DNA from: Cyanomargarita calcarea GSE-NOS-MK-12-04C | GTDB lineage: Bacteria > Cyanobacteriota > Cyanobacteriia > Cyanobacteriales > Nostocaceae | Direction: 5' to 3' | Assembly (NCBI GenBank): GCA_019359595.1 | Contig: JAHHGZ010000010.1 | Location: 1-64,000 of the forward strand | Length of the DNA: 64,000 bases | Part shown: positions 6,626 to 64,000 of the stretch, piece by piece | Position numbering within the stretch: the stretch's first letter is position 1 | How the letters are laid out: the number at the start of each line of letters is the position of its first letter | Translations under genes and position numbers: made by a program | The notes under the pieces: generated by a model | Databases searched by the model: none | What the model was told of the DNA's origin: nothing | What the model saw: only the letters and a program-made list of their open reading frames with translations

Positions 6626-6806
6626 ATTTTCATCCCCGTGAGGGGTAAATAATTTCAAACGAAAAAAAACTACAAGAAAGTAGGTATACCGGACAAAGTT
6701 TCCATCCCCGTGAGGGGTAAATAATTTCAAACAAGAAGGGACACCATAACGGATCCTTCGGACATCTTAATGTTTCCATCCCCGTGAGGGGTAAATAATT
6801 TCAAAC
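6626..6806 (-). CRISPR. CRISPR array 2, three repeats and two spacers
   Basis: Repeats are at 6626-6660 (degenerate start), 6698-6732 and 6772-6806; spacers are 37 and 39 bp. The repeat shares the hairpin and the ATGGAAAC handle with array 1 but differs in the other half (minus strand GTTTGAAATTATTTA rather than GTTTTGAATTTATTA). The degenerate copy at the left is the leader-distal end, consistent with leftward transcription from the leader on the right. Its shortness suggests a young, rarely expanded or trimmed array. Confidence 0.95.
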
Positions 6807-62239: not shown

Positions 62240-62488
62240 ATGGAGCAAATTCCTCTGCCTTCACCTGTCCACTACGAACTTATACTGCAACTGCTGGAAA
62301 GACAAACCATGTCAGCAGTTAGTCAAAACCCGGATCTCCGACGTCAAGTGAATCAGCTAATTATTACGCTCCGTAAAGCTGCCGTTCAACAAAAGCACTT
62401 GGAAGAAATCTGCCAGTTCTCCTCGGTGGCAGTTGACCATCGCTGGTCAATAAATCATAATTCTGGGAAAGCTGTTGCCCCTGATTGA
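62240..62488 (+). CDS. DUF5340-like small protein
   Basis: The 82-aa product starts MEQIPLPSPVHYELILQLLERQTM, a pattern of a small conserved cyanobacterial family of unknown function (I believe DUF5340). It is helical and soluble, with no catalytic residues visible. It is 125 bp after trpC. Confidence 0.55.
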   Translation: MEQIPLPSPVHYELILQLLERQTMSAVSQNPDLRRQVNQLIITLRKAAVQQKHLEEICQFSSVAVDHRWSINHNSGKAVAPD

Positions 62489-63001
62489 TTAAAACTCGTC
62501 AATCCATTAGTTCCTCTGAAACCCTTTTAATCAACAGGGTTTTGAAGAATCCAATCCTTAACTCCTAAATCTAAAATTCGCTATTTCACAGACATCCGCT
62601 CTAAGTCGGCTTATTTTGTCCTTAAACGCGGAAACTAGGTAAAATTTTCTAGGCTAGGGGATAAAGAACTTTACTTTATCTCCCCAAAAAACCTACAGAC
62701 ACCAAAAACACCAATAGGGAAACCTTAACTGCCTTGATGCTTTTATTTTATATATGGTTTAAATTTAATAATAGATGCTTATTATACCATATATTTAATT
62801 TTTTTTACAAATTAATCATCTTTTTGAATGCTCGGTAAAATGGGCTATTCAAACATAGACTCGGAAGCCCCCCTGCCCAGAAGAAAATTCAAAGCTTTAT
62901 TCACCCACAGATTGAAGTAATAAACGCTACACGAATATGTGCCGTAGGTAGCCCACAGTAAGGTAGACTAATTAAACGTATCTTCATAGTTACAATCACC
63001 A
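62489..63001. other. intergenic region with hairpin
   Basis: A stem (GGGGATAAAG / CTTTATCTCCCC, 62657-62685) with one bulge may terminate the DUF5340-like transcript. The rest is AT-rich with a repeat block near 62865-62960. No gene is supported. Confidence 0.5.
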
Positions 63002-63146
63002 ACCTTTGCTGCAATTGGCTGTACCGGGTTCACTAAACCTACTTAAATCTGGACAAGCCAGCTAGCAGTAAGGTTTGTGTCGGAATAAGTAATCTTGCTT
63101 ATCCGGAAATACTGTATAATTCTAAGTCAAGAATTATACATTTTTT
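63002..63146 (+). promoter_or_regulatory. structured leader with perfect terminator hairpin before the amidohydrolase
   Basis: Pairing CCTTTGCTGC / GCAGTAAGG (63004-63073) closes a complex folded region. A second hairpin (CGGAATAAG / CTTATCCGG, 63081-63106) and a perfect 11-bp stem TGTATAATTCT / AGAATTATACA (63113-63140) with T6 follow. The gene start is 33 bp later, so this is either an attenuator/riboswitch or the end of a small RNA. Confidence 0.45.
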
Positions 63147-63178
63147 AGCCAGGAAAAAAATTCAGTGAGGATAATAGT

Positions 63179-64000
63179 GTGAAAGGCCAACTGCAGAAGT
63201 ACCATAGGCTATTGATTCTTTTTGTCTGTACAGTATTTATTGCCTTTGCGGGTCAGGTAGCAATCGCCCAGAACAATTACCGCTGGGGCAATCAATCCAG
63301 ACAGCCAGTAGAAATGATTGTGAGTGGTGATTTTGTTGTCACCATGAATGAAGCACGACCTGTAATCGAGAATGGGGCGATCGCCATCAAGGACGGCAAA
63401 ATTGTTGCAGTAGACACACAAAACAAAATCATGGCAGCTTACAGTTCTGCCAGAAAGTTACCAGGCGAGGGTATGGTACTGATGCCGGGTCTTGTCAACG
63501 GTCACTCTCATTCGGCAATGGTGTTGTTTCGCGGTCTTGCGGACGACTTAAGGTTAGAAGATTGGTTACAAAATTACATATTTCCCGCAGAAAGACGGTT
63601 CGTTGACGATAATTTCATCCGTGTTGGTGAAGAACTTGCTTGTTGGGAGATGATTCGTAGTGGAACCACAACATTCGTTGATATGTACTTCAAGCCGGAT
63701 GTTGCCGCGAAAGTAGTTGATAAATGCGGCTTGCGAGCTATGATTACAGGTTCGGCGATAGATTTCCCCAGTCCTGGTTTTCAAGGCTGGGATGATGCGT
63801 TTGCCTCGGCGGTAGATTTCGTGAAACGCTGGAAAGGAAAGAACCCACGAATTATACCAGCCCTAGCTCCACACGCTCCCTATACTGTCTCGCCAGAGCA
63901 TCTAACACAGGCAATTGGGGCTGCACGTCAATACGATGTGCCATTGACAATTCATCTTGCAGAGACACAAACCGAAGTCAAAGACATCCAGCAGCGCTAT
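63179..64000 (+). CDS. exported amidohydrolase, SAH/5'-MTA deaminase-like (runs off right edge)
   Basis: The frame starts at a GTG with GAGG 9 bases upstream, and is open for 274 codons to the window edge. A signal peptide (RLLILFVCTVFIAFAGQVAIA|Q) is unusual for this group. The metal-binding MPGLVNGHSHSAMVLFRGLADD (H-x-H), ACWEMIRSGTTTFVDMYF, ALAPHAPYTVSPEHL and IHLAETQTE follow the cytosine/guanine/S-adenosylhomocysteine deaminase branch of the amidohydrolases. The C-terminal metal ligands lie outside the window. Confidence 0.85.
   Translation, partial: MKGQLQKYHRLLILFVCTVFIAFAGQVAIAQNNYRWGNQSRQPVEMIVSGDFVVTMNEARPVIENGAIAIKDGKIVAVDTQNKIMAAYSSARKLPGEGMVLMPGLVNGHSHSAMVLFRGLADDLRLEDWLQNYIFPAERRFVDDNFIRVGEELACWEMIRSGTTTFVDMYFKPDVAAKVVDKCGLRAMITGSAIDFPSPGFQGWDDAFASAVDFVKRWKGKNPRIIPALAPHAPYTVSPEHLTQAIGAARQYDVPLTIHLAETQTEVKDIQQRY

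Follow-up and report, generated by a model that had tools for sequence, protein, structure and literature searches.

The structured block at 62990-63146, which lies in front of a deaminase gene, is very probably the junction of two unrelated pieces: a remnant of a TnpB element's right end and the native leader of the deaminase gene, with a hairpin of its own. The block lies in a window of 64,000 nt, the whole stretch of DNA that we analysed, taken from Cyanomargarita calcarea GSE-NOS-MK-12-04C (GCA_019359595.1, contig JAHHGZ010000010.1, positions 1-64,000 of the forward strand). Comparison with related genomes gave the identity of the right end, the strand that carries its structure, the position of the junction at 63107 and the conservation of the hairpin.

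The preliminary description had seen here a closed complex fold, a second hairpin and a terminator-like stem with a T6 end before a GTG start, and this anatomy is present. The fold of 62990-63146 on the + strand reaches -52.4 kcal/mol, with a z-score of -7.64 and none of 200 shuffles as good. It consists of a closed fold at 62997-63082 (z -3.35), a second hairpin at about 63081-63105 (z -4.46) and a perfect 11-bp stem at 63113-63123/63130-63140 (z -6.25), followed by T6 at 63141-63146, which ends 32 nt upstream of the GTG at 63179. The raw stability is unexceptional for the window, where 10 of 852 tiles of 150 bases fold equally well or better. Folding is good on the minus strand as well (z -4.17), and the advantage of the + strand over it (z -6.6 vs -4.2) counts against reading the block as a relic. 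Rfam searches of the whole window, together with a permissive search (E <= 10) of 62480-63300, returned no relevant family at the gathering cut-off or at E <= 10. The terminator scan left the stem at 63113-63140 unlisted, because only 2 of its 11 pairs are G-C.

We searched the block as DNA in 60 relatives and then in 217 family genomes. It occurs at 82-86% identity at five places in four other genomes, among them Dulcicalothrix desertica PCC 7102 and Calothrix sp. NIES-4105 (5 of the 217 genomes including Cyanomargarita calcarea, E <= 1e-4). Two of the five copies lie just 3' of intact genes for RuvC/TnpB-like proteins of 542-545 aa, on the strand opposite to the RNA first proposed. The third follows a RuvC/TnpB-like gene with an internal deletion, the fourth only about the last 44 codons of such a gene, and the fifth, judged by eye, its last few codons. 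Past the element end, which reads ...TTTAGTGAACCCG on the minus strand of the window (63025), the copies abruptly cease to resemble one another. Of 30 family loci, 11 carry the terminal motif no more than 171 nt from the tnpB stop. A search of 247 kb on both strands gave 11 matches to the motif, every one so placed; the other 19 loci, fragments included, have different ends or none recognisable. The window thus holds, on its minus strand at 63025-63106, 82 bp corresponding to the 3' part of a reRNA/omegaRNA scaffold of an IS607-type TnpB element, with the element end at 63025, a truncation at 63106 and native sequence from 63107. An intact element is absent at the locus, and since only these 82 bp remain, with no tnpB ORF nearby in the window, we regard them as a relic and not as an active element. 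Plasmid and phage collections gave no match to the block, and in the single available genome of the genus it was found only in Cyanomargarita calcarea itself.

The conserved structure of this right end belongs to the minus strand. In an alignment of seven right-end copies, 97.7% of the pair cells are standard, two-sided changes occur at 7 of 20 pairs, and none of 500 shuffles reaches the covariation score. Read on the tnpB-sense strand, the pair cells comprise 119 Watson-Crick, 11 G-U, no A-C and 3 other combinations. Because a G-U on one strand is an A-C on the other, the 11 G-U against 0 A-C indicate that the conserved RNA structure is that of the window's minus strand and not of its + strand. 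The window copy itself retains every one of the 20 scaffold pairs. A covariance model built from the right ends found 9 matches in 7 of 208 genomes at E <= 0.01; seven of the nine are the sequences used to build it, and only two are new, both weak matches (5.7e-4 and 7.9e-4), which counts against our reading. Rfam returned nothing on six related loci, and the covariance model made here describes a cyanobacterial TnpB right end for which Rfam has no entry.

Matches to the tnpB family were found in 25 of 208 genomes. The Pfam cut-off for Cas12f1-like_TNB was reached by three of five family proteins tested (L046, L048, L051) and missed by L054 and L038; L040/L002, from the window's own subfamily, also scores below it. 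The family profile matches solved TnpB and Cas12f chains, with a best E of 1.7e-7. On these matches the RuvC proteins belong to the TnpB/Cas12 superfamily. A narrower assignment to Cas12 or a CRISPR system was rejected, as weak PADLOC matches to Cas12f/b/u and the PDB matches to TnpB/Cas12f place the protein in the superfamily only. Among the relatives, the tnpB of L045, 67% identical to that of L038, is interrupted by a single stop codon; next to this pseudogene stands a right end that looks intact. L044 holds a 57-aa ORF divergent from tnpB (1240-1413, minus), perhaps a small regulator, and similar antisense stretches occur upstream of tnpB in L049, L050 and L071.

A weaker right-end copy, a covariance-model match, lies directly after an IS607-type tnpA (MerR + Resolvase), with no tnpB ORF listed, and tnpA-like 3' ends were seen by eye upstream of more distant tnpB relatives. 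The former, at 1440-1660 of L116, is possibly a tnpA-only element. The closest tnpB relatives, L043 and L044, showed no adjacent tnpA, a point against our reading. The arrangement at the family loci is that of the right-end guide RNA (reRNA) which PMC10711439 describes for IS607 TnpB. According to PMC10711439, IS607 right ends are also expected to carry a fixed right-flanking G. The G is present in the window, but in only 4 of the 8 copies read, which likewise counts against our reading.

The DNA flanking the element end, at 62991-63024, occupies what would be the guide position in a live element. It is absent from the other copies and pairs with the right end, and the large closed fold of the + strand is the right end paired with the adjoining 62997-63024. 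The duplex of flank and right end reaches -23.3 kcal/mol, a value that 83 of 2000 shuffled flanks (4%) and 70 of 5000 random 34-mers of the window (1.4%) also attain. The pairing is thus mildly unusual and compatible with chance, and the large closed fold is most likely accidental. We also considered whether 62991-63024 might be the right end copied in inverted, degenerate form and rejected this, the pairing being only mildly unusual. With up to 3 mismatches allowed, the 22-nt stretch at the guide position has no second occurrence in the genome. A search of 60 genomes with the left flank, looking for an empty site, matched no other genome and found only repeats within the Cyanomargarita calcarea genome.

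The deaminase is present in 29 of 208 family genomes, including Cyanomargarita calcarea, and we compared the 28 orthologous upstream regions. The right-end block was found in none of them at E <= 0.1. The native leader (63107-63178, + strand) shows 75-79% identity to seven of the 28 orthologous leaders, and as all seven alignments begin at 63107, the border between relic and native sequence maps to that base. Within the leader, an AU-rich 11-bp hairpin at 63113-63140 is conserved without gaps and with covariation in 10 of the 28 orthologs (L074, L080, L081, L083-L086, L091, L096, L098). Among nine distinct sequences, the window included, 4 of 11 pairs have two-sided changes, and neither the count of pair types nor the covariation score is reached in any of 500 shuffles. 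Pairs read on the + strand include 12 G-U against 1 A-C, with 8 other mismatches, and half of the hairpin bases vary little. The T6 run at 63141-63146 has a counterpart in 7 of the 10 hairpin relatives, the nearer ones, and is absent in the more distant L091, L096 and L098. The fit to the 11-bp hairpin covered these ten. Among the other 18 orthologs, by eye, eleven (L087-L090, L092-L095, L097, L099, L100) show another possible stem, a shorter one, in the corresponding position, L076, L077 and L079 have the apparent coding end of another gene close upstream, and L075, L078, L082 and L101 have nothing similar. On this pattern of substitution, 63113-63140 is probably a true hairpin of the + strand mRNA leader, and among the parts of the block it is the only one with evidence of selection at the deaminase gene. 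The check put forward in the preliminary description, whether related upstream regions conserve the pairing, therefore comes out in favour of the 11-bp stem (10 of 28 orthologs) and against 62997-63106 (0 of 28).

The gene behind this leader starts with the GTG at 63179, reads on the + strand and runs beyond the window end at 64000; it encodes a TRZ/ATZ-type deaminase of the amidohydrolase class, 484 aa overall. The partial protein matches Amidohydro_1. Its best NCBIfam match is the TRZ/ATZ hydrolase PRK09045, which at 501 bits lies below the cut-off of 540, and it also matches models of 5'-deoxyadenosine and SAH/MTA deaminases, likewise below cut-off. A signal peptide is a judgement by eye only. 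A gene for a DUF5340 protein (62240-62488) lies between trpC and the intergenic region. Positions 62942-62988 are part of a multi-copy, MITE-like repeat of the Cyanomargarita calcarea genome, found at no fewer than nine further places with 85-100% identity over parts of 62489-63022. The intergenic region before the deaminase is a patchwork of mobile remnants. Elsewhere in the window, CRISPR repeats (Rfam CRISPR-DR37) lie at 475-1898 (19 listed) and 6698-6806 (2 listed).

We infer the following order of events. An IS607-type TnpB element would have inserted with tnpB reading leftwards, on the minus strand. A deletion ending exactly at the start of the deaminase's own leader, 63107, would then have left the last 82 bp of the right end, which in a live element would form the 3' end of the guide-RNA scaffold transcript. 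The relic probably does not function as a guide RNA, since no cognate tnpB was found and the sequence at the guide position occurs nowhere else in the genome. The native hairpin would probably be transcribed with the gene on the + strand, and might serve either to make the mRNA more stable or as a weak terminator or attenuator; either role is possible.

The preliminary description had suggested the layout of a riboswitch-controlled attenuator; on such a reading 62997-63106 would be the ligand-sensing aptamer and 63113-63146 the terminator of the expression platform. The strong + strand fold, a hairpin and T6 close to the start codon and the conservation of that hairpin speak for it. However, the putative aptamer is missing from all 28 orthologous upstream regions, has no Rfam match and is a transposon end whose conserved structure lies on the other strand, and the T-run is lacking in three of the ten hairpin relatives. 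We therefore hold a riboswitch to be extremely improbable: the complex fold and second hairpin are the antisense of a TnpB right end, and what survives of the original proposal is the covarying leader hairpin and its possible terminator or attenuator action. A second suggestion, a small RNA gene ending at T6, found no support either. A stand-alone + strand RNA newly assembled from the relic, using the native hairpin as its terminator, would fit the compact fold ending in hairpin and T6. It is very unlikely nonetheless, as the unit is not conserved and has a single copy in the genome, and the scan lists neither a suitably placed promoter-like site nor a terminator-like site.

A further alternative is that the right end is still in use, either as an orphan guide RNA transcribed from the minus strand and working with a TnpB, or as a transposon-derived promoter or regulatory element of the deaminase. 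In its favour are the 20 of 20 intact scaffold pairs and a TATAAT at 63115-63120, which none of the other aligned hairpins has. Yet the genome has only two TnpB homologs, 36-40% identical, one with an internal stop and the intact one with a different 3' end, and the guide-position sequence recurs nowhere else at up to 3 mismatches. A promoter at 63115-63120 was rejected, as no -35-like match is listed at standard spacing before the TATAAT and this motif is not common to the relatives. Continued use of the right end is thus highly improbable. That the perfectly paired right end, fused to the conserved leader hairpin, was captured in one lineage as a regulatory front of the deaminase, acting as an orphan guide RNA or in promoter-proximal control, we likewise consider very unlikely. 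The hairpin itself could be a DNA operator, since it forms a dyad, some 40 nt ahead of the start codon, in which half of the bases vary little. The two-sided changes that preserve pairing and the 12 G-U against 1 A-C fit a + strand RNA better; an RNA hairpin is thus favoured, and an operator appears unlikely though worth keeping in mind.

Together, the junction of a TnpB right-end relic with a native leader shows how a convincing riboswitch-like fold can arise from a dead transposon end and a native hairpin, a case in which the z-scores of the folds, taken alone, would have misled. A covarying leader hairpin in front of a cyanobacterial TRZ/ATZ deaminase is moreover a candidate for regulation. 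In the papers listed by searches on TnpB, IS607, omegaRNA and related subjects, titles and opening abstracts described neither the right end nor the leader hairpin.

Compared with known systems, the block shares with purine, SAH and other riboswitches only its position upstream of a purine-metabolism-like gene, whereas it has no Rfam match in 62480-63300 and its structure is not common to the orthologs. The leader hairpin resembles an intrinsic terminator or attenuator in having a stem and then T6 near the start codon, the stem being conserved with covariation; it differs in that the stem is AU-rich, with 2 G-C pairs, and the T-run is missing in three of ten hairpin relatives. The relic is not a member of the RAGATH-18 reRNA family, since it has no Rfam match, and the proteins of its relatives, at 480-545 aa, fall outside the class that averages 390 aa in PMC11061315. 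Unlike the reRNA/omegaRNA of IS607 TnpB, it consists of 82 bp only, without tnpB. It shares with that RNA a structured scaffold 3' of a TnpB-family gene that ends at the element border, with variable DNA beyond; an IS607-type tnpA occurs with some of its relatives.
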